NCBI RefSeq assembly: GCF_012102745.1
Contig: NZ_JAAVSY010000004.1
Span: forward strand, 1 to 64,000
Source: Haematospirillum sp. H4485
GTDB lineage: Bacteria > Pseudomonadota > Alphaproteobacteria > Rhodospirillales > Rhodospirillaceae
Reading direction: 5' to 3'
Length of the DNA: 64,000 nucleotides
In this document: one piece after another, positions 2,052 to 39,360 of the stretch
Numbering within the stretch: the first letter of the stretch is position 1
How the letters are laid out: each line of letters starts with the position of its first letter
Notes under the pieces: generated by a model
What the model was told of the DNA's origin: nothing
Seen by the model: the letters and a program-made list of their open reading frames with translations, nothing else
The model's database searches: none
Translations under genes and position numbers: made by a program

Positions 2052-2152
2052 GGCGAAAACTCCGGTCCAAACGTCAAGAACGCCCACACTATGTGCGTTT
2101 CCCAGCAAAATCACCAGCCCGGAAAATAACAAAAAAGCGCTTCTGGATAAAC

Positions 2153-4882
2153 TCAGGCTCCCTGAACAAGCCTATCAGGGGGAAGCCATACGCGAACCTC
2201 GGTCCCTTTACCCGGCGCACTGACCAAGGATAATGTCCCCCCATGCGCCTCCACCAAGGAACGGGACAAGGGCAGCCCCAAACCCGTTCCCTGATGTCGG
2301 CGCGACAAACTGCTGTCAATCTGACCAAACGGGGCCATGGCAACGGCAATATCCTCGATCCGCATACCAATGCCGTTATCAGAAACCGTTATCGTCATAC
2401 CATCCGCAGAAGGGTACAAGGCAGTAACGGTCACAACACCGCCTGAAGGAGTAAACTTGATCGCGTTGGACAACAGGTTCAGCAGGACCTGACGCAGGCG
2501 TCGCGCATCTCCCCTGATGGACAGGAGATCTGAGGGGATATCTGTGCGCATTGTCAGCCCTGCGGCAGACAGCTGGCCCTGAAGAAGACGGATTGTTCCA
2601 TCAATCAGGTCAACCGGTTTTATCACATCGTCATCAAGCGTCAGATGCCCGGCCTCAACCTTGGCTGTATCAAGTATATCATTGATAATAGAGAGAAGAT
2701 GCTGCCCTGACTCCTTGATACTGGCCGAATAGTCCTTGTACTGGGGTGCGGTATGGGTACCAAGAATCTCACTGGCCATAACATCGGAGAAGCCGATAAT
2801 CGCATTCAGCGGCGTCCTCAACTCGTGACTCATATTTGCCAGGAAAAGAGACTTTGACCGGCTGGCAGCATCCGCCTGCTCCAAGGCTGCCCTGAGGTGC
2901 GTTTCTGTCTCAACGTGGGTAATCCGGGCCCCGATCCACAGGGCCAACAAGCGCGCAAACTCAAGGTCGGCGGGCTGCAGGCAATGTCCTGTCTTTCCCG
3001 GACCACGAAAGAACAAGATACCCCACGTGCGTCTGCAAGCCACAACACGCACAGCCAGACAGGCTTGACCTGTCTCCTCCTGTGTACAGCTTGGCACAAG
3101 AATTTCCTGCCCTTCCAGAACATCAGACAACGACATTCCGGCGCAGGATACAACCTGTCCCACCTTCAGATCATCATGCCTCCCAACCACGTAGTCCGAA
3201 ATCAGGACATCGCCCTGACAACGCGCAAGACAGGCACCGGTCATGTCAAAGCGCTTGCACCCAAGCTGCAAGAGGGCTGGAACCTTCTCGGCCATTCCTT
3301 GGTCCGGATCACTGCTGATCTTGTGTAGCTCACGCAAATCAGCCTCTGACGACAACAAGGCCAACTCGGCCGCTTTTCGTTCCGAGATATCGGTAAACGT
3401 CATGACCGTCAGCCCCTCAGGCGTCCTGGTTTCTGTCATCAGGACCCACAAAGAATCCCGGAAGCAACGTTCACGTGGACGGGAGCGTTGGCCGGAAGCA
3501 TCTCCGGGATCACGGTCGTGACCGTCTGATGCAGAAGCAACCGAGACAGGCTGCTCAAGAGCATCAAGCAAGGCTACGACTTCGGCATAATGAATGCCGG
3601 GTACAACACGTTTGGTCAGTGACGGGAAAAGCAACCGGAATGCTTGATTACAAATCAGAAGACAGTCTTGGCTGTCCCAAAGAAGGAAACCTTCGGATAC
3701 CCGGTCCAAGGCTTCGGCCAAACGGCTTTCAACCGTCCTTTTATGCTCGAGGGTTCGGGCGGTAAATTCTTCTTCCATCCGATCGCGCGCATTGCGAAGA
3801 TCACGTTCCAGGCGCTTCATGGCCGTAATGTCCGTAATGGAAATGAAGAAACCCCGCACGGCAGCCCGTTCAAAAACAGGCTGTAATTCGACCCTGACGC
3901 AGCGCACTCCGTCAGGGAATGACCAGACCCCCTCGGAAACCGCAGACAACCCATCCAGAGCGGCCACAACAAGATCAGAAACCTGGGCGTAGTTCTCACC
4001 CAGATGAAATTCAAAATTCTCCCCGGCCAGAAGGTTGGTACCAACCGGAACGGAGGATGTCCCAAAAGTGCCAAACCAGCGGCAATATTCGGCTGTTGCA
4101 AAAACATAATGCTGGCGATGGTCAACCCGGGCAATCATTGCCGGCAAAGGACCCGTAATATCCTGCAGGGAGCAAGACAACGCGCTTATACTTTCCTCCA
4201 TATGGCGACGCAGCGCCCCTTCCCTCACCAGAAGCTGGCGATCGTGTCCCCGGGCCCGCCAGAACACGACACAGATTGCCAGAACAATCAGGAAGACAAC
4301 ACCAAACCCTGCCCCAACGCACCAACGATACACTCGCAAAAAGATCTGTTGTTCATTCAGGGCTGAGCTGGCATCCAGACGCAACAGAACCCCGCCAACA
4401 AGACTACCGTCACGACGCTCCAAAGGAAGTGCGGCAATAATTTCCACAGACGTACCATGATCCTGCAACCAAACGGACTTGTATCCACGCAAGGCCGAAG
4501 ACAGCCACAAGGGATCAGAGGAAAGATCAGGCAAGGCAGGAGCTGCATCCGGGATAACCGCAGACCCATCTGGATAAACCACCACAACGGCTGTCACGGG
4601 AAGATGATGAATCTCCCTCATGACAAGACTGTACACAACCAAGGCAAGATCATGCGAAAGTTCTGCGGGAGCCTGTGTCTGTGAGGACCATCCCTCCAGA
4701 GCTGAACTCAGGGCCGGCAAAGACCCCCAGACTTCCTGTAGGGACAACTCCAACGCCAGTTCACGCACCCTGCGTTCTGAAAGCGAAAGAGATACGAGAG
4801 CAGCTAATACGACAAGACACAGGGAAAAAAGCGTTGCGAGCCGCAAACCCCATGCCTTGCCCTGCTGCCCGTCAACACTCAT
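2153..4882 (-). CDS. Membrane-bound PAS/GAF sensor histidine kinase
   Basis: The protein has 909 residues. Segments in order: TM helix (~12-33), periplasmic sensor (~35-187), TM helix (~188-212), PAS (~240-345), short coiled coil, second PAS (~385-500), GAF-like region (~515-650), HisKA with phospho-acceptor His686 in NMSHELRTPL, and HATPase_c with N, G1 and G2 boxes (NLLSNAIKF, DNGIGM, GTGLGL). No receiver domain is fused and no response regulator lies nearby, so it is an orphan kinase with an unknown signal. The ATG at 4882 sits 2 bp after the heme A synthase stop, so translational coupling is likely. A longer in-frame extension to 5119 lies inside that gene and is rejected. Confidence 0.9.
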   Translation of the reverse strand: MSVDGQQGKAWGLRLATLFSLCLVVLAALVSLSLSERRVRELALELSLQEVWGSLPALSSALEGWSSQTQAPAELSHDLALVVYSLVMREIHHLPVTAVVVVYPDGSAVIPDAAPALPDLSSDPLWLSSALRGYKSVWLQDHGTSVEIIAALPLERRDGSLVGGVLLRLDASSALNEQQIFLRVYRWCVGAGFGVVFLIVLAICVVFWRARGHDRQLLVREGALRRHMEESISALSCSLQDITGPLPAMIARVDHRQHYVFATAEYCRWFGTFGTSSVPVGTNLLAGENFEFHLGENYAQVSDLVVAALDGLSAVSEGVWSFPDGVRCVRVELQPVFERAAVRGFFISITDITAMKRLERDLRNARDRMEEEFTARTLEHKRTVESRLAEALDRVSEGFLLWDSQDCLLICNQAFRLLFPSLTKRVVPGIHYAEVVALLDALEQPVSVASASDGHDRDPGDASGQRSRPRERCFRDSLWVLMTETRTPEGLTVMTFTDISERKAAELALLSSEADLRELHKISSDPDQGMAEKVPALLQLGCKRFDMTGACLARCQGDVLISDYVVGRHDDLKVGQVVSCAGMSLSDVLEGQEILVPSCTQEETGQACLAVRVVACRRTWGILFFRGPGKTGHCLQPADLEFARLLALWIGARITHVETETHLRAALEQADAASRSKSLFLANMSHELRTPLNAIIGFSDVMASEILGTHTAPQYKDYSASIKESGQHLLSIINDILDTAKVEAGHLTLDDDVIKPVDLIDGTIRLLQGQLSAAGLTMRTDIPSDLLSIRGDARRLRQVLLNLLSNAIKFTPSGGVVTVTALYPSADGMTITVSDNGIGMRIEDIAVAMAPFGQIDSSLSRRHQGTGLGLPLSRSLVEAHGGTLSLVSAPGKGTEVRVWLPPDRLVQGA

Positions 4883-9869: not shown

Positions 9870-11975
9870 TCAGGCACCGGATTCAACCGGTCGCGCCGCA
9901 GCCTGAATAGCCGTCAGGGCAATTGTATAAACAATATCGTCCACCAGAGCACCACGGGACAAATCATTGACCGGCTTGCGCAGGCCCTGAAGCATCGGAC
10001 CGACACTGACCACACCGGCAGAACGCTGGACAGCCTTGTATGTTGTGTTGCCGGTATTCAGATCCGGAAAGACAAAAACCGTCGCGCGCCCGGCCACCGG
10101 ACTGTCTGGGGCCTTGCTCCGGGCCACACTCTCAACACTGGCCGCGTCGTACTGCATCGGACCATCTATGGTCAGGTCCGGACGACGGGAGCGGGCCAGC
10201 TCGGTCGCTTGCCGCACCTTCTCGACATCATCGCCACTACCCGATGTTCCCGTTGAATAGGAAATCATCGCCACACGGGGATCGATGCCAAAAGCCCGCG
10301 CGGAATCCGCCGACTGAATGGCAATATCGGCCAGCTGCCCGGCATCGGGGTCTGGATTGATGGCACAGTCGCCATAAACCAGAACCTGGTCCGGCATCAG
10401 CATGAAAAAGATGCTGGAGACAATACTGGCACCCGGTGCTGTCCGAATTAACTGAAGTGCCGGGCGCACCGTGTTGGCTGTTGTATGAACGGCACCGGAT
10501 ACAAGGCCATCAACCTCGTCCAGGGCAAGCATAACAGTTCCCAACACAACAGTATCTTCCAACTGTTGCGCTGCCTGGGGTGCGGTCAATCCCTTGCCCT
10601 TGCGCAGCTCGACCAGCGGGTCCACATAACGGTCACAGACAGATTCCGGATCAACAATTTCCAGTCCCTCGGGCAGTTCCAGACCACGCGCAGCCGCCAC
10701 TTCGCGGATACGACCCGGATTACCCAACAGAACACAGCGGGCAATTCCCTTGCGATGGCAGATCACCGCGGCCTCCAGGGTCCGGGGTTCATCACCCTCG
10801 GGCAGAACAATCCGCTTGTCGGCCTTCCGGGCTTCCCGGATCAGACGGTAACGGAAGGCGGGAGGCGACAACCGAAGCTCGGAAGGCTCACCGATGATAC
10901 GCCGCAAAGGCCCCGTATCCAGACGGCTTGCCACGAAATCAATCACCTGCTCCATCTGCTCGAAGTCATCGGCAGCAACCCCGCTGGCCAGACGGGACAG
11001 GGCAGAAGCTACAGCAAAGGTATCTTCCTTCGCCATAACAACCGGCAGGGTACCGGAGCTGGGGGGCATCACCAGATCAGCAACCCGTGGCGACAACGTC
11101 CCGCCACCGGTCAACAGAAGTCCGGACAAGGGCACGCCCCTCTGGTTGGCAAGAGCTGTAGCCAAGGCAATATCGCCACGGTCACAGTGGCTGACGACCA
11201 GAGCACCAGGCCCAAGGCGGGAAATACAGGTCTCGGATTCACCGGCGGCCACAACGATATTGCGGACCCGTGATGTTTCCAGAGACCCATGATGCAGCAC
11301 CTTCAGATCCAGGGCACGCACCACATCAGACAAACGGGGAGCCAGTAACCGTGGCTCCCAAGGGACAATACCGATCAGCGGGATTGAAACATCGGCCTTC
11401 TCCATGGCAACCCGCAAGGCCGAAGCATCAACATCTGCCGCATGCTTGTTGACCAGAACCCCGACCGGGGAACGGTCTGCAGCGGGAAGGCGAACAGCCT
11501 TGGCCACAGAAGCAGCCAAGGCATCCAGACCTTGGTTCTGTCCGGGGACAACAACAATCCGACCGGCATCCAGGCTGCGACACATGGCCGCGTTGAGAGC
11601 CGTTGCCATACCGCTGCCATTCAGGGGCAGCAGCCCTTCCAGGACAACAACGTCAACACCGGCAGCCACCGCCTCAACAATAGAAACCACATCTTCCATC
11701 AGACCGTCGATGTCGCCGGCCGTAAAGCGGGTTTCCGCAACATCGAAAGGTATAGAAGACGCCACTTCGGCAAGACAAAGCTGACGGGCAAACTGGGCAG
11801 ATGGATCAGCCAGGTCCCCCTCGGAAACAGGTCCAGAAGAGTCCGGCTGAGCCACCGGCTTGGCGAAGGCAACCTTCAGACCACTGCGCTGAAACGCGCG
11901 GGCCAGCCCCAAAGCAGCAGAGGTCAGCCCTGCATCGCGGGTTGTTGCCGAAAGAAAGAACGTTTTGGAGGACAT
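9870..11975 (-). CDS. pta: Phosphate acetyltransferase (long, Pta type)
   Basis: This 701-residue enzyme converts acetyl-CoA and phosphate to acetyl phosphate and CoA. It has the long E. coli-like architecture: an N-terminal dethiobiotin-synthetase-like P-loop domain (~1-220), a DRTGG domain (~220-340) and the C-terminal catalytic PTA_PTB domain (~380-695), with the conserved GATFVFPDLNTGNTTYKAVQR-like stretch near the end (here RATVFVFPDLNTGN). ATG 11975 has GGGGGAG upstream. It follows ackA by 12 bp and is the last gene of the fermentation operon. Confidence 0.96.
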   Translation of the reverse strand: MSSKTFFLSATTRDAGLTSAALGLARAFQRSGLKVAFAKPVAQPDSSGPVSEGDLADPSAQFARQLCLAEVASSIPFDVAETRFTAGDIDGLMEDVVSIVEAVAAGVDVVVLEGLLPLNGSGMATALNAAMCRSLDAGRIVVVPGQNQGLDALAASVAKAVRLPAADRSPVGVLVNKHAADVDASALRVAMEKADVSIPLIGIVPWEPRLLAPRLSDVVRALDLKVLHHGSLETSRVRNIVVAAGESETCISRLGPGALVVSHCDRGDIALATALANQRGVPLSGLLLTGGGTLSPRVADLVMPPSSGTLPVVMAKEDTFAVASALSRLASGVAADDFEQMEQVIDFVASRLDTGPLRRIIGEPSELRLSPPAFRYRLIREARKADKRIVLPEGDEPRTLEAAVICHRKGIARCVLLGNPGRIREVAAARGLELPEGLEIVDPESVCDRYVDPLVELRKGKGLTAPQAAQQLEDTVVLGTVMLALDEVDGLVSGAVHTTANTVRPALQLIRTAPGASIVSSIFFMLMPDQVLVYGDCAINPDPDAGQLADIAIQSADSARAFGIDPRVAMISYSTGTSGSGDDVEKVRQATELARSRRPDLTIDGPMQYDAASVESVARSKAPDSPVAGRATVFVFPDLNTGNTTYKAVQRSAGVVSVGPMLQGLRKPVNDLSRGALVDDIVYTIALTAIQAAARPVESGA

Positions 11976-31931: not shown

Positions 31932-32582
31932 TCAGAGGAGGGTGCAGTAGTAGAGTGCCTTGCCAAGAGCACTGGCACCATCGTTGCCGGCCACCTGCTC
32001 CAGTCGAGCCCGTGTGATCTGCCCGGTCCACTGGTGCCGCTGGGACAGGATTTCCAGAATTGACACACTGTTGGACGGCGTAAAAGCAACACCCGCCTGT
32101 TTCCAGAGACACCGGCAATCCAGCTTAGGCACAAGCTGTTCGCACTGTGCTACAACCTTCCCTGCCATATCATCCGTATATTCATTGGACGGCCTGGAGT
32201 TATAGGCTTTCAGCCACAATCCACCTCCAACCCCAAGTGTCAGGGCAATGCCCAAAGCAACAATGCGGATAAAGAAACCAAACTGCGAGGGACGACGGAG
32301 AGGCCGACCATGATGGTCGTGGTGACCAGGGTGATGGTCCGCCGTATGATGATGGTCAGCAGCGGAAGGCCCATGGCTGTGATGACCATGGGCATGGTGC
32401 GGCTGTGGATGTGTAGCACTGCCATGAGACCCCGGGCCATGAGGGCCGGAAGTCGGGTGACCGTGGTGCCTGAGGCCACGATTGCCATGCTTGTCCGGTT
32501 TATGATGGTCCGGACCATGCTCCCCTGCGCTATGGCCGGGGTGATGAGCCCCACCGGAAGAATGGCTGTGATCCTTGGCCAT
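31932..32582 (-). CDS. Histidine-rich single-pass membrane protein of unknown function
   Basis: The 216-residue protein begins with about 92 residues holding 30 His in Gly/Pro/Asp-rich context (for example HHAHGHHSHG and DHHHTADHHPGHHDHH). A basic patch and one TM helix follow (~104-126), then a C-terminal domain with four Cys (CEQLVPKLDCRC; YYCTLL). With a basic patch before the helix the His-rich tail is probably cytoplasmic, and the Cys domain periplasmic. GGGGGG precedes ATG 32582 by 6 nt. It is divergent from lptF (117 bp). Metal binding by the tail is an inference. Confidence 0.82.
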   Translation of the reverse strand: MAKDHSHSSGGAHHPGHSAGEHGPDHHKPDKHGNRGLRHHGHPTSGPHGPGSHGSATHPQPHHAHGHHSHGPSAADHHHTADHHPGHHDHHGRPLRRPSQFGFFIRIVALGIALTLGVGGGLWLKAYNSRPSNEYTDDMAGKVVAQCEQLVPKLDCRCLWKQAGVAFTPSNSVSILEILSQRHQWTGQITRARLEQVAGNDGASALGKALYYCTLL

Positions 32583-32699: not shown

Positions 32700-33836
32700 A
32701 TGCGTACCATAACGTCCTATGTCCTGTTTCAGCTTGCTACCGGAACCATCTTGGTCACTGCCGGTCTGCTTTCTGTTGCCTGGCTCACACAGTCGCTGCG
32801 TTACATTGAACTGATTGTTACGCAGGGTGTGTCTGTCCACTCTTTCCTGACCTTGACCGGATTGCTGCTTCCAGGCTTCCTGTCCCTGATCATGCCCGTC
32901 GCCTTGTTTATGGTTGTTTTGTTTACATACAACCGCCTGAATACAGACCGGGAGCTTGTTGTTATACGTGCGGCCGGGGTGGGCCCATTCGGCTTGGCGT
33001 GTCCAGCCCTGATCCTGGCTTTTGTCATGATGGCAGCTGGCTACAGCCTGACGCTCTGGCTGGGGCCGGAAAGTGCACGTTCCTTCAAGGAACTGCAATG
33101 GAACCTACGCAATGATGCATCAAAGTTGATGATCCAGGACGGCACCTTCAACGATGTTGCTACCGGCCTTACGGTCTATACCCGCACCAGAACCAGCAAT
33201 GGAGAGCTTCTTGACGTCATGATCCATGACACCAGGACACCGGGCAAGACAAACACGATTATAGCAGAGCGGGGAGCTGTTGCTTCGTCGCCGGCAGGCC
33301 CCGTTCTGATTCTGGGCAAGGCGAGCAGCCATCAGGTCACTCTTGGGACTGGAACCATGGCACTGCTGGATTTCGAACGCCTGTCCGTCAACCTGTGGGA
33401 TCAGCCCGGGAAAGAACACGGGCAGCGCTATCGTGAAGCACAGGAGCGACCAACGCACGAGTTGCTGACAGTCACAGAGAAAACAGATCTGACCATCCGC
33501 CCGGCTGATGTACCCCGTTTCCGGGCAGAGGCCATACAACGACTGTTCAATCCCATATCCTATGTCTGCTTCGTCCTGATTGCCCTTGCTGGTCTTTTAT
33601 CAGGTTCCTTCAGCCGACGTGGCCATACGCAGCGTATTGTTCTGACAGCCGCAACCATGGTCTTGGTACAGTCCGGGATCATAGGTGCCGGTAATCTGGC
33701 ATCACACGCTACAGATCTTTTACCCCTAATTCCTGCAGCTGTTCTTTTGCCAACAGCGGTAGCCTTGTTTATCCTTGCTCGCTCAACCCGATCTATCACC
33801 GTGTCCCCTTTCCCCAACCGGACCAGAATGTCATGA
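32700..33836 (+). CDS. lptF: LPS export permease LptF
   Basis: The 378-residue protein is an LptF/LptG (YjgP/YjgQ) permease with TM helices at both ends and a periplasmic beta-jellyroll in the middle. The N-terminal WLTQSLRYIELIV and FTYNRLNTDRELVVIRAAG are typical of LptF rather than LptG. With LptG and the ATPase LptB it extracts LPS from the inner membrane. The ATG at 32700 has no clear Shine-Dalgarno. The stop overlaps lptD (ATGA). LptG, which usually lies between lptF and lptD in this group, is not here. Confidence 0.9.
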   Translation: MRTITSYVLFQLATGTILVTAGLLSVAWLTQSLRYIELIVTQGVSVHSFLTLTGLLLPGFLSLIMPVALFMVVLFTYNRLNTDRELVVIRAAGVGPFGLACPALILAFVMMAAGYSLTLWLGPESARSFKELQWNLRNDASKLMIQDGTFNDVATGLTVYTRTRTSNGELLDVMIHDTRTPGKTNTIIAERGAVASSPAGPVLILGKASSHQVTLGTGTMALLDFERLSVNLWDQPGKEHGQRYREAQERPTHELLTVTEKTDLTIRPADVPRFRAEAIQRLFNPISYVCFVLIALAGLLSGSFSRRGHTQRIVLTAATMVLVQSGIIGAGNLASHATDLLPLIPAAVLLPTAVALFILARSTRSITVSPFPNRTRMS

Positions 33837-36046
33837 CAAGACGTGGCATGTTACCACCGCTTTCTCCGCTGACGCGCCCGATACCATTTCTCCTGTCAGG
33901 CATGATGGTGTGTGCCACGGCAATTGCGCTATGTATCCCGCAACAGGCGTGGAGTCAGATGCAGCCCCCCCCGCCAACAGAAAACCGTGCGGAGGAACAG
34001 AAACCGCGTGCGCATGTAACTGCCGATGAATTGATCCACGACAAGAACCTGGATACGGTTACAGCGCGTGGAAATGTAGAGTTCCAGTACGGTGCGGTCA
34101 TTCTGATCGCTGATACCATCAGCTATCAGCCCGGAAAAGATTTGGCTACGGCCAGCGGAAACGTGGTGCTGACAGACGAGGATGGTACCACCACATTCAC
34201 GGACTATGCAGAGTTAACCGGAGACCTGAAAAACGGCTTTACTCACGCCATCAAGGTTGTACTTGCGGATGGATCACGCAGCCATGCTGAACAGGCGGTA
34301 CGCCGTGAAGGAACCTCGACAACCCTTGAAAATGCAGCCTACACACCGTGCGATGACTGCGGCGATGATCCTGTCATATGGCAGATCAAGGCCGTACGGG
34401 TTGTGCACGACCAAAATGCCCGGGAAGTTCGGTATAACCACGCATGGCTTGAATTGTTTGATGTGCCCGTGCTGTATACCCCGTATCTGTCTCACCCGGA
34501 CCCCTCTGTCAAACGCAAAAGTGGCTTTCTGGTCCCATCGTGGAAGAACAACAAAGATCTTGGTTCTGCCTTTAGCATACCATGGTTCCAGGTCATCAAT
34601 GATCAGCAGGATATAACCCTGACGCCCACGATAACATCAAAGGAAGGGATTGTTCTTGGCAGTCAATATCGTATTGTCGGACACAAAGTGGCCCTTTCTG
34701 CCACAGGGTCCATAACCCGGGACAATCGGGAGCGTGTCCGCAATCACGTGTCTGCAAAAGGACTATACGCCATAAACGATACGTGGCGCGCCGGTGCCGA
34801 TATTGATCTGGCATCTGATCCAACCTACCTGCGGCGTTATGGCTTCGGAGCACCGGCTTTCCTGGAAAATCGGGGCTATGTCGAAGGGTTCAGCCGTCGC
34901 AGCTATGCCGCACTGGAAAGCTTCTATTTCCAGAACACAGGCGCCCCGCTGAGAAAGGGCTATGAGATCCCGTTTGTTACTCCGCTGGGCAGCATCAATT
35001 ACAGTACAGAACCCGATAACAGGGGAGCATGGACAACGCTGGACATATCCACTGCCAGCATAAACCGAACATCAGGGCCAAAAAGCCAACGGGCAACAAC
35101 AACACTGGGATGGCATTTACCCTATGTCGGATCTGCTGGAGACGTATGGAGACTGGATACAAGTCTGCGTGGAGATGTGTGGCATGTTGCTGATGTACCA
35201 ATCAAGGACAGCACCGATCATCGCTATACAGGGACCATAGGGCGAGCCGTGCCTGAGGCCGCACTGACGTGGAGTCTCCCGCTTGAGCGTACGCATGAAG
35301 ACTGGAGCGAGGTGCTGGAACCAACGATACAGGGTATTATAAGCCCGCGTGGGGGCAATAACCGTAAAGTCCCCAACGAGGACAGCCTCGATTTCGAGCT
35401 TGACGATGTCAACCTGTTCTCGACCAACCGCTTCACGGGCTATGACCGCATTGAAGGCGGAACACGGGTGAACTATGGGATACGCTATACGGCATACGGC
35501 ACAAGGGTGGGGACCATAGACACCTTGGCAGGGCAGACGTGGCGGCAGCATCCTGATGGATTGTTCCAGAAAACATCCGGGCTTCATGACACTTTCTCCG
35601 ACTACGTCGGCAGACTGTCTGTTTACCCGAACAGCAATTTCTCGACATCCTGGCGTGTACGGCTGGATCGCGACAATGGTGAAATACGCCGCAATGACTT
35701 CAACACAACAATCGGACCGGATGTCATGCGTACAACGGTTGGATATGTAAGCACGCAGCGTCCCGCGATTGAGGACAATACCACCGGCGAACGCAAGGAG
35801 CTCTACAGTGGCGTATCGTCACGTATCTCGCGGTACTGGAGCAGCGGTGTATCCGGACGTTGGGATGTCGCCCGTAACGGGGGGCCAATCGCAACCCAAG
35901 GACAGCTTGTTTATGAGGACGAATGTATTGGTGTTACCTTACAGGCTGGCCGTAAATATACGTATGACAGGGATTATAATGGTGGAACATTTATCGGCTT
36001 GGTCCTGTCACTAAAGACACTGGGCGACTATAACACACAGCTCTGA
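33833..36046 (+). CDS. lptD: LPS assembly outer-membrane protein LptD
   Basis: The 737-residue protein has a signal peptide (~1-41, ending AWSQ), an OstA/LptA-like beta-jellyroll (~60-190: VTADELIHDKNLDTVTARGNV) and a large C-terminal beta-barrel (OstA_C). It forms the LPS translocon with LptE. Cysteines are few (CDDC at about 163-166 and one near the C-terminus), so the disulfide pattern differs from E. coli. It is translationally coupled to lptF and followed 11 bp later by surA. Confidence 0.93.
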   Translation: MTRRGMLPPLSPLTRPIPFLLSGMMVCATAIALCIPQQAWSQMQPPPPTENRAEEQKPRAHVTADELIHDKNLDTVTARGNVEFQYGAVILIADTISYQPGKDLATASGNVVLTDEDGTTTFTDYAELTGDLKNGFTHAIKVVLADGSRSHAEQAVRREGTSTTLENAAYTPCDDCGDDPVIWQIKAVRVVHDQNAREVRYNHAWLELFDVPVLYTPYLSHPDPSVKRKSGFLVPSWKNNKDLGSAFSIPWFQVINDQQDITLTPTITSKEGIVLGSQYRIVGHKVALSATGSITRDNRERVRNHVSAKGLYAINDTWRAGADIDLASDPTYLRRYGFGAPAFLENRGYVEGFSRRSYAALESFYFQNTGAPLRKGYEIPFVTPLGSINYSTEPDNRGAWTTLDISTASINRTSGPKSQRATTTLGWHLPYVGSAGDVWRLDTSLRGDVWHVADVPIKDSTDHRYTGTIGRAVPEAALTWSLPLERTHEDWSEVLEPTIQGIISPRGGNNRKVPNEDSLDFELDDVNLFSTNRFTGYDRIEGGTRVNYGIRYTAYGTRVGTIDTLAGQTWRQHPDGLFQKTSGLHDTFSDYVGRLSVYPNSNFSTSWRVRLDRDNGEIRRNDFNTTIGPDVMRTTVGYVSTQRPAIEDNTTGERKELYSGVSSRISRYWSSGVSGRWDVARNGGPIATQGQLVYEDECIGVTLQAGRKYTYDRDYNGGTFIGLVLSLKTLGDYNTQL

Positions 36047-36081
36047 GACAATCGGGAATGGCAAGAGTAGCAAGGCATCCT

Positions 36082-37392
36082 ATGATACACACCACACAGA
36101 CAACCAATGTCGCATTACGATCCAGGCTTCCGGTGTCAGCCATTGCCTTCTGCGTCGGACTTTTATCGGTATGCGGATCCTTGCCTGCTTTTGCTGTACA
36201 AAGTGGCCAAACACAGCGCATCGCAGCCGTTGTGAACGATGAAGCGATAACATGGAAGGATGTTGACGAGCGGACATCTCTTCTTCTGCTGACCTCACGC
36301 CTTCCGGACAATCACGAAACCCGGCAGAGAATTGTCCCACGCGTTATTCAGGTTCTGGTCAACGAGCGCCTGAAAGTGCAGCAAATCAAGAAGGCAGGAA
36401 TAGACGTAGAGCCAGCTGACATTGCAAATGCAAAACGTCAGATCGAACGAAATAACGGATTCCCGACCGGCGCACTGGATGATTTGCTAAAGCATCAGGG
36501 TCTTGCTCCTCATATCCTGGAAACACAGCTCCGCGCTGATATAGGCTGGGTACGCTACGCACAGAGTACACTGCGGCGTCAGGTTTCTGTTGAGCCTGCC
36601 GAGGTTGATGCTGTCATCAGTACCATGAAGGATAACCTCGGGCGCCCACAGCGGCTACTGGCTGAAATTGTCCTGCCTGTAACTGATCCGGCTGAAGAGC
36701 GGCAAATGCGCGCCTTGGCTGATCGCTTGGTAGACCAGATCAGGCAAGGCGCTCCCTTTGCTTCGCTGGCGCGCCAGTTCTCGGCTTCAGTAACAGCTGC
36801 TGTAGGCGGTGATCTCGGCTGGATCACTACCGGAGCCTTGGAGCCCGAGATTGAGCGGGTTCTGGACACCATGTCGCCGGGCATGCTGTCACAGCCTGTC
36901 CGTACGACAGGAGGCTATGCCATCATGCTGCTGCGTGACGCCAGGGAACCCAGAAAGCAGAATCCGGATGATATCCGGGTCCAATTGAGCCAGATTTTCA
37001 TGCCGTTATCCGGCCCGGCAGCCCTATCCGAAGCCAAGAGAGCAGAGATTGCACGCTCTGTCCGCGACACTGCCAAGTCATGCGCCGATATTGATGCAAC
37101 GGCAGGTCAACTGAACCTGCCGGGATCCGGTGCCATCGGGAACATGCGACTTGCCGACCTGCCCCCGCCGGTACGGGCTGTGGTCAGGGATTTACCACTG
37201 AACACCCTCGGCGGCCCGGTTGAGGTTGCTGGCGGGGAGGCTATCGTTATGGTCTGCGATCGTCAGGACACAGCCGGCCTCCCACCACGGGAAGAGATCG
37301 AACAACGCCTGACGCTGGAGAAGCTGGAGCGGGTCTCCAACCGTGCACTCCGTGATCTGCGTCGATCCGCACTAATTGATATCAGACGCTGA
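36082..37392 (+). CDS. surA: Periplasmic peptidyl-prolyl isomerase/chaperone SurA
   Basis: The 436-residue protein has a signal peptide ending PAFA, a SurA_N chaperone domain (IAAVVNDEAITWKDVDER), then a parvulin PPIC domain (~170-275: ASLARQFSASVTAAVGGDLGW) and a second degenerate parvulin-like region. It escorts unfolded outer-membrane proteins, including LptD, to BAM. I chose ATG 36082, with AAGG 6 nt upstream; ATG 36058 is in frame but has no well-placed site. It lies in the lptF-lptD-surA-pdxA-rsmA run common in Proteobacteria. Confidence 0.92.
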   Translation: MIHTTQTTNVALRSRLPVSAIAFCVGLLSVCGSLPAFAVQSGQTQRIAAVVNDEAITWKDVDERTSLLLLTSRLPDNHETRQRIVPRVIQVLVNERLKVQQIKKAGIDVEPADIANAKRQIERNNGFPTGALDDLLKHQGLAPHILETQLRADIGWVRYAQSTLRRQVSVEPAEVDAVISTMKDNLGRPQRLLAEIVLPVTDPAEERQMRALADRLVDQIRQGAPFASLARQFSASVTAAVGGDLGWITTGALEPEIERVLDTMSPGMLSQPVRTTGGYAIMLLRDAREPRKQNPDDIRVQLSQIFMPLSGPAALSEAKRAEIARSVRDTAKSCADIDATAGQLNLPGSGAIGNMRLADLPPPVRAVVRDLPLNTLGGPVEVAGGEAIVMVCDRQDTAGLPPREEIEQRLTLEKLERVSNRALRDLRRSALIDIRR

Positions 37393-37434: not shown

Positions 37435-38457
37435 ATGCACACAACACGCCCCCTCGCCCTGACAATGGGAGACCCTGCAGGAATCGGGGGGGATATTACC
37501 TTGAAAGCGTGGCTTGGGCGGAAACAGAATCCGGTACCTGCCTTTGTAGCCCTTGATGATCCCGGGCGCCTGCAAGAACTAGCCTACAGGCTGGGACTGT
37601 ATGTACCACTCGTAACGGTCAGCACAGCGCAAGAGGCACAAGCCGTATTTGACCAGGCCCTCCCCGTGATCCCTGTGCCCCTTGCCAAAAAAGCGGTTCC
37701 GGGATACCCGGATCCAGACCATGCCGGTGCGGTACTGGACTCCATACGTATAGCCGTTCAGATGACCATGGCTGGTAAAACCTGTGCCATGGTTACAAAC
37801 CCCATCAGCAAGAAAGTGTTACGTGAACAGGGGTTTGGCTTCCCCGGTCATACCGAGTACCTGGCCAGCCTGGCTGGTCCTGATACACAGGCCGTGATGA
37901 TGCTGGCCAACGAGAGCCTGCGGGTTATTCCAGTTACCATTCATATTCCCCTGCGGGATGTTGCAAGCACCTTGACCACAGAACACATTGTCACATGTGG
38001 ACATACCGCCGCACAGTCCCTGCGACAGTACTTTGCCATCCCTTCACCCCGGCTTGCCATTGCGGGGTTGAACCCTCATGCCGGAGAGGGCGGAATTATG
38101 GGAACCGAAGAGCAGGATATTATCGAGCCTGCTGTTCAGCTCCTGCGCCAAGACGGCATTGAAGCATCTGGCCCCCTGCCAGCTGACACCCTGTTTCACG
38201 CTGAAGCCAAGCAGCACTATGACGTTGTGCTGTGTATGTACCATGACCAAGCCCTGATCCCACTCAAGGCCCTGGATTTTCATGGCGGGGTCAACGTGAC
38301 CCTTGGCCTTCCCTTCATTCGTACATCACCAGATCACGGAACAGCATTTGCGCTGGCCGGGACCGGGAAGGCGCGCGAAACCAGCTTGGTTGCAGCCCTA
38401 CGCATGGCCTCCGCCATGGCCGGGCGTTCTCCTGCCTCAGCTGCATATTTATCCTGA
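37435..38457 (+). CDS. pdxA: 4-hydroxythreonine-4-phosphate dehydrogenase
   Basis: The 340-residue enzyme starts with LALTMGDPAGIGGDIT and carries metal-binding His motifs (FPGHTEYLA, MYHDQALIPLK, SPDHGTAFALAGTG). It oxidises 4-phosphohydroxy-threonine in the DXP-dependent pyridoxal phosphate pathway, with PdxJ, which is not in the window. It lies between surA and rsmA as in E. coli. Confidence 0.96.
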   Translation: MHTTRPLALTMGDPAGIGGDITLKAWLGRKQNPVPAFVALDDPGRLQELAYRLGLYVPLVTVSTAQEAQAVFDQALPVIPVPLAKKAVPGYPDPDHAGAVLDSIRIAVQMTMAGKTCAMVTNPISKKVLREQGFGFPGHTEYLASLAGPDTQAVMMLANESLRVIPVTIHIPLRDVASTLTTEHIVTCGHTAAQSLRQYFAIPSPRLAIAGLNPHAGEGGIMGTEEQDIIEPAVQLLRQDGIEASGPLPADTLFHAEAKQHYDVVLCMYHDQALIPLKALDFHGGVNVTLGLPFIRTSPDHGTAFALAGTGKARETSLVAALRMASAMAGRSPASAAYLS

Positions 38458-38472
38458 AAGTAACCTTGTGCC

Positions 38473-39360
38473 ATGACGCCGTCGCATCCAGATTTCCCGG
38501 AACATCCCCTGTTCCCGCTTCTACCTCTACGCGAAACAATTGCCGCACACGGCTTGATGGCACGCAAGAGCTTGGGGCAGAACTTTCTCTTTGATCTCAA
38601 TCTGACAGGACGCATCGCCCGTAGTGGCGGTACCTTGGCCGCAGGTACGACCATAGAAATTGGTCCCGGCCCCGGGGGGTTGACCCGCGCCCTGCTGGAT
38701 AACGGCGCCCGCCACGTCATTGCCATAGAACGTGACCCACGCATGCTGCCGATCCAGCAAGAGATTGCATCCGCCTACCCGGAACGTCTTGAGGTCATGC
38801 AGGCTGATGCCCTTGCCATCCCCGTGCATACCCTTGGCACATCACCGCGGCGCATTGTGGCCAACCTTCCCTATAACGTTGCAACGCCGCTGATTCTTGA
38901 ATGGCTGAAGCATATTCAGGCCTTTGAATGTCTGGTGGTCATGCTTCAGAAAGAGGTTGTCAACCGCCTGGCGGCACGCCCCCGTACATCAGATTACGGA
39001 CGCCTGACAATTATCACCCAGTGGCTGTGCACCGTTGAACCCTTGTTTGACGTCAATCCCCGGGCTTTTATTCCCCCACCCAAGGTCACGTCCACGGTTG
39101 TGCGCCTGGTTCCGCGTCCGGCCCCCCTCGCCCCTTGCCGTTTTGACATGTTGGAGGCAGTCACCGCTGCTGCCTTCAATCAAAGACGGAAAATGCTGCG
39201 GTCCAGCCTAAAAGGCCTGGCAGCATACATGCCAAGCGGCATGACACCAGAAGACCTGTGCGCCGCCGCCAACATTGTACCTACAGCACGCGCCGAGGAG
39301 CTGGACATTCCCCAATTTTGCGCCTTGGCGAACAGCTTGGACCCCAGCCATACGCTATAA
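38473..39360 (+). CDS. rsmA: 16S rRNA dimethyladenosine transferase RsmA/KsgA
   Basis: The 295-residue SAM-dependent methyltransferase has the SAM-binding IEIGPGPGGLTRALL and the catalytic NLPYNVATPLI motif. It dimethylates A1518 and A1519 in helix 45 of 16S rRNA; loss gives kasugamycin resistance. The N-terminal extension contains KSLGQNFLFD, the usual KsgA start region. It converges on gmk with 10 bp between stops. Confidence 0.96.
   Translation: MTPSHPDFPEHPLFPLLPLRETIAAHGLMARKSLGQNFLFDLNLTGRIARSGGTLAAGTTIEIGPGPGGLTRALLDNGARHVIAIERDPRMLPIQQEIASAYPERLEVMQADALAIPVHTLGTSPRRIVANLPYNVATPLILEWLKHIQAFECLVVMLQKEVVNRLAARPRTSDYGRLTIITQWLCTVEPLFDVNPRAFIPPPKVTSTVVRLVPRPAPLAPCRFDMLEAVTAAAFNQRRKMLRSSLKGLAAYMPSGMTPEDLCAAANIVPTARAEELDIPQFCALANSLDPSHTL

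Follow-up and report, generated by a model that had tools for sequence, protein, structure and literature searches.

Separate loci for the lipopolysaccharide export genes lptF and lptG in Haematospirillum and its relatives

Where is the gene for the second permease of a lipopolysaccharide exporter when lptF runs directly into lptD? The question is raised by a window of 64,000 nucleotides from Haematospirillum sp. H4485 (contig NZ_JAAVSY010000004.1), a member of a genus that NCBI taxonomy places in the Rhodospirillales, family Novispirillaceae. In this window, lptF and lptD share an ATGA motif (33833-33836), in which the lptF stop codon TGA (33834-33836) overlaps the lptD start codon ATG (33833-33835). 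A sequence-only reading of the window had noted the overlap and the lack of space for lptG, and the sequence confirms both: lptG needs ~1.1 kb, and no such space exists between lptF and lptD even if lptD has a later start. From this, it had been proposed that lptG is missing, having either moved elsewhere or given way to a homodimer of LptF.

The lptF-lptD junction and the lptG gene of contig C3

The product of the window gene scores 229.7-230 bits against the LptF model (TIGR04407), which is borderline for the cut-off of 230, and only 66.5 bits against the LptG model (TIGR04408). The solved structures nearest to it are LptF chains (6mit_F, E 2.3e-14). In an alignment of 50 LptF rows, the protein is gap-free over 352 core columns and matches 34 of 35 near-invariant columns, defined as those at least 95% identical across the alignment. 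Its coupling-helix glutamate is residue 85, which aligns to residue 84 of 6mit_F. The lptD product has its top NCBIfam matches to LptD models, at 107.3 bits, short of the cut-offs.

Both lptF and lptD are in the interior of a single contig of 161,146 bases, and their junction is therefore not an assembly break. In Haematospirillum sp. H1815, a public contig (L005) encodes an LptF with 95% identity to that of the window, and the neighbouring genes are the same. The surA-like gene also keeps its position after lptD in relatives; it is followed by two genes that we take to be pdxA-like and ksgA-like. On the other side of lptF, a divergent frame on the minus strand (31932-32582) encodes a histidine-rich, possibly metal-binding product, with 30 His within the first 100 residues counted from a putative start Met at 32582.

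Table 1. Exporter genes and lptF-lptD cluster genes of the Haematospirillum sp. H4485 genome (positions without a contig label are those of the window)
Feature	Position	Strand	Evidence
lptF, LPS export permease LptF, 378 aa	32700..33836	+	TIGR04407, borderline
lptD, outer-membrane LPS assembly protein, 737 codons	33833..36046	+	ORF, LptD-model matches
surA-like peptidyl-prolyl isomerase gene, after lptD	36058..37392	+	NF008038 88.2 bits, below cut-off 394
pdxA-like gene, lptF-lptD cluster	37435..38457	+	ORF; position kept in relatives
ksgA-like gene, lptF-lptD cluster	38473..39360	+	ORF; position kept in relatives
lptG, full length	G000:C3:60779-61858		TIGR04408 249.4 bits, cut-off 240
LptB gene	C26:55665-56375		367.8 bits, cut-off 240
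LptC gene	C26:54088-54597		32.3 bits, cut-off 21

A genome-wide hunt for a second YjgP/YjgQ-type permease (Pfam accession PF03739) gave exactly two matches: the window gene and a gene on contig C3 (60791-61852). The latter is an intact lptG (Table 1), the outcome that the sequence-only reading had said would make the case one of relocation. Its product scores 76.7 bits against TIGR04407, and the solved structures nearest to it are LptG chains (8frl_G, E 1.2e-15). Within the LptG alignment (59 rows), the protein is gap-free over 363 core columns and matches all 41 near-invariant columns.

Alignment to solved chains places the coupling-helix glutamate of the C3 protein at residue 113. This glutamate is kept in every row of both alignments (59/59 LptG, 50/50 LptF). 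In one study (PMC5082905), it is described as crucial, strictly conserved and needed for LptB2FG assembly; the E. coli residues are E84 of LptF and E88 of LptG. The genes for LptB and LptC were found ~1.1 kb apart on contig C26.

The claim that lptG is missing thus stands for the lptF-lptD locus and fails for the genome, and the suggestion that the gene moved is supported by the LptG equivalog on C3. Because an intact lptG is present elsewhere, the lipopolysaccharide exporter looks ordinary, with only its gene order unusual. Like the LptB2FGC extractor of solved structures (6mhu, 6mit, 8frl, 9doh), the window genome has one LptF, one LptG, LptB, LptC and the coupling-helix glutamate; what sets it apart is that its lptF and lptG are unlinked. 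According to PMC10353723, lptF and lptG occupy one locus and lptD another in E. coli, S. flexneri and B. burgdorferi.

Distribution of the split in the Rhodospirillales

We surveyed lptF and lptG in 100 sampled genomes of this one order, the window's genome included. Before manual re-reading, the two genes were adjacent in 76 genomes and on different contigs in 20, while 1 genome had LptG only and 3 had neither. Two calls were changed by hand. G080 went from adjacent to split: only an extra pair (L037) is adjacent, the lptF linked to lptD is on its own (L038) and a second LptG is on another contig. G032 went from split to uncertain because both of its matches are at contig starts, so that their separation is probably a contig break. 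In the final count, 20 of 100 genomes are split, some of them (including G075 and G087) solely from different contigs; the other 80 comprise 75 adjacent, 1 uncertain (G032), 1 with LptG only (G084) and 3 with neither.

The split includes every sampled member of four families (f1, 8/8; f4, 5/5; f22, 6/6; f24, 1/1). Comparison of gene order among relatives, which had been proposed along with the genome search, thus reveals an arrangement common to four families of the order. Outside these families, 75 of 80 genomes have the genes adjacent, and the expectation that lptF and lptG are usually neighbours holds in the sampled order. Compared with the remainder of the order, the window has an unusual gene order, yet one that is old and common to its relatives.

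We also searched the window's own family (59 genomes): 30 are without an adjacent pair, 26 carry one or more such pairs and in 3 LptG alone was found. The genes are on different contigs in 28 of the 30 non-adjacent genomes; in the other two they are on one contig, 148 kb apart in G119 and 711 kb apart in G123, which is a one-contig genome. More than one LptF match was found in 25 of the 26 genomes with an adjacent pair. Where both copies were inspected (G080, G100, G103, G132, G138, G140 and G146), an adjacent pair occurs beside a separate lptF. G128 (58% complete) is an exception to the family-wide split, as its sole LptF and sole LptG matches are adjacent.

The lptF-lptG-lptD clusters of other families resemble the window in that lptF and lptD are clustered, followed by surA-, pdxA- and ksgA-like genes in fetched stretches long enough to include them. 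They differ from it in that lptG follows lptF: 14 of 15 have lptF just upstream of lptG, and 11 of 15 have lptD downstream within 5 kb. Candidate LptF-LptG fusions, which appeared as one frame of ~750-900 aa in many genomes, were rejected, the inspected examples being two frames with a single stop between them (in L026, frames 2087-3280 and 3284-4387 are parted by a single stop codon).

Several loci depart from both arrangements. In family f17 (L028, L033, L043, L044), surA directly follows lptG and lptD is gone from the cluster. The LptD match is far from lptG or on another contig in 6 of 6 f17 genomes searched, and the departure of lptD is a parallel relocation. In G084 (L056; family f27, 98% complete), lptG is clustered with lptD, a mirror image of the window case; no LptF match was found in this assembly, in which a gap is possible. 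In genus g66, lptF is beside lptD in G140 (L119), G118 (L121) and G136 (L122). The usual lptG and its cobalamin adenosyltransferase gene were not found in these three genomes, whose sole LptG match belongs to an extra pair. This may reflect lptG loss or an assembly gap; if the loss is real, one LptG could serve two LptF proteins.

Extra, diverged LptF-LptG pairs are encoded in some genomes of the family, including G100 (L123 7066-9492), G140 (L118 8000-10406) and G080 (L124 8555-10963). Close to the G100 pair are genes for a fatty acid hydroxylase, a DAGK_cat protein and a serine palmitoyltransferase, the last scoring 624.9 bits against NF047599 (cut-off 500). The genes adjoining the G140 pair encode a Sulfatase-family protein and one of the DAGK_cat/YegS_C type. 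The G100 pair resembles the LptF2/G2 set of Caulobacter crescentus, whose LptC2/F2/G2 proteins are proposed to transport phosphosphingolipids (PMC11324152). The Caulobacter set belongs to the same permease families, whereas the window genome has a single LptF and a single LptG.

A proposed single relocation and its alternatives

We built trees from one LptG each of 59 loci and one LptF each of 50 loci, using quick searches with SH-aLRT support only. The lptG tree has 44 split and 15 other rows on two sides of one branch (SH-aLRT 100). The lptF tree likewise has 37 split and 13 other rows on two sides of one branch (SH-aLRT 91; the tool's mark is 95). The lptG tree and neighbour counts leave out L002 (the same gene as L003) and L086 (G018; lptG matched in two pieces), the lptF set leaves out L001 and L005 (the same genes as L004 and L006), and loci fetched later are absent from trees and neighbour counts. 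Copies from extra sets scored below 180 and were dropped, except the LptG of L057 (G103), which was kept and labelled adjacent.

L057 is a second, very diverged lptF-lptG-lptD-surA-pdxA cluster that G103 carries besides its split genes (L058, L059). Its LptG has a very long branch in the lptG tree, and the cluster was possibly acquired.

The simplest account, which also fits best, is one old relocation with local rearrangements after it. lptF would have remained in the cluster beside lptD, while lptG would have undergone one move, in an ancestor shared by several of the order's families. At its new site, lptG would adjoin a divergent cobalamin adenosyltransferase gene, with glycosyltransferase and PAP2 phosphatase genes downstream. 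LptF and LptG would then be made from separate loci and pair as the usual heterodimer on the LptB dimer. Of 37 split lptF loci, 30 have a relative of lptD next to lptF; the other 7 (L012, L014, L024, L055, L101, L103 and L104) have no adjoining lptD match, which indicates more extensive rearrangement in some lines.

We give a probability of roughly 0.95 to the reading that the window holds one half of an ordinary LptB2FG extractor, with lptG relocated once and the LptF-LptG heterodimer retained. Both genes are present, intact and unlinked, the arrangement is common to relatives and the trees show a single branch. Expression of both genes, formation of the heterodimer and relocation as one event are what we infer.

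The alternative in which lptG is truly absent and LptF acts as a homodimer draws on the lack of lptG between lptF and lptD, but its strict form is refuted by the conserved full-length LptG on C3, which scores over the curated cut-off. With 23.5% identity over 119 residues, LptF and LptG of the window genome are also clearly distinct proteins. Since the genome encodes a conserved partner in LptG, the homodimer is unsupported here, and we consider it extremely improbable. We attach equally little likelihood to the split being an artefact of assembly or binning. The window genome is in 29 contigs, but both genes are well inside long ones (97,975 bases for that of lptG). Moreover, the neighbours of lptF are the same in Haematospirillum sp. 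H1815 (L005), those of both genes are the same in G055 (L006, L007), which belongs to the window's genus and is probably the genome of H1815, and the split is also found in other genera and in the one-contig G123.

It is also quite unlikely that the C3 lptG was imported from another lineage and replaced the native gene, as its gene order, unlike that of other families of the order, might suggest. The gene groups with those of other split genomes in the tree, and its GC content resembles its surroundings (0.569 vs 0.562 in the surrounding 20 kb). In addition, G055, G121, G091, G111 and G039 are among the best six relatives of both LptG and LptF. An old replacement of lptG at the base of the clade is possible.

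The new neighbours of lptG and lipid A

For the neighbourhood of lptG, we counted genes within 5 kb whose products match proteins of the window genome. Among 44 split lptG loci, 36 have the divergent cobalamin adenosyltransferase gene (not found in 8), 33 have the PAP2 gene downstream (not found in 11), 29 have the PMT-type glycosyltransferase gene downstream (not found in 15) and 28 have etfB further up; some of the misses are loci cut by contig ends, and divergent copies could escape the count. None of these four neighbours was counted in the fetched flanks, shorter for most, of 15 adjacent-type lptG loci.

The lptG stop codon of the window genome (L003 9868-9870) overlaps the glycosyltransferase frame, which has a putative start at ATG 9863 (a later ATG is at 9878). 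The glycosyltransferase stop codon in turn overlaps the PAP2 ATG at 11398 of L003 (ATGA). In Pfam, the glycosyltransferase is a PMT_2 protein (88.7 bits, cut-off 26.1) and the phosphatase a PAP2 protein. The top NCBIfam matches are the ArnT model for the former (NF009784, 26.7 bits, cut-off 567) and the LpxF model for the latter (NF045633, 123.6 bits, cut-off 400). As both scores are below the cut-offs, these likenesses are resemblances and not memberships.

Rhizobia pair LpxF with a PMT-type galacturonosyltransferase. Based on the overlap of lptG with genes for a PMT-type glycosyltransferase and an LpxF-like PAP2 protein, the lptG operon could couple lipid A remodelling at the periplasmic face (phosphate removal and sugar addition) to the supply of LptG, with the remodelled lipid A then exported. 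We offer this idea tentatively and consider it doubtful.

A literature search of titles and abstract openings, in which few subscription papers were covered, found no description of a split between lptF and lptG, a slight hint that it is unpublished. Mildly new is that lptG now overlaps genes resembling those of lipid A-modifying enzymes. The analysis removes the false lead of an LptF-only exporter and shows that lptF and lptG can remain separate while several families diversify. The neighbours that recur beside lptG are a modest hint at lipid A modification in this lineage.
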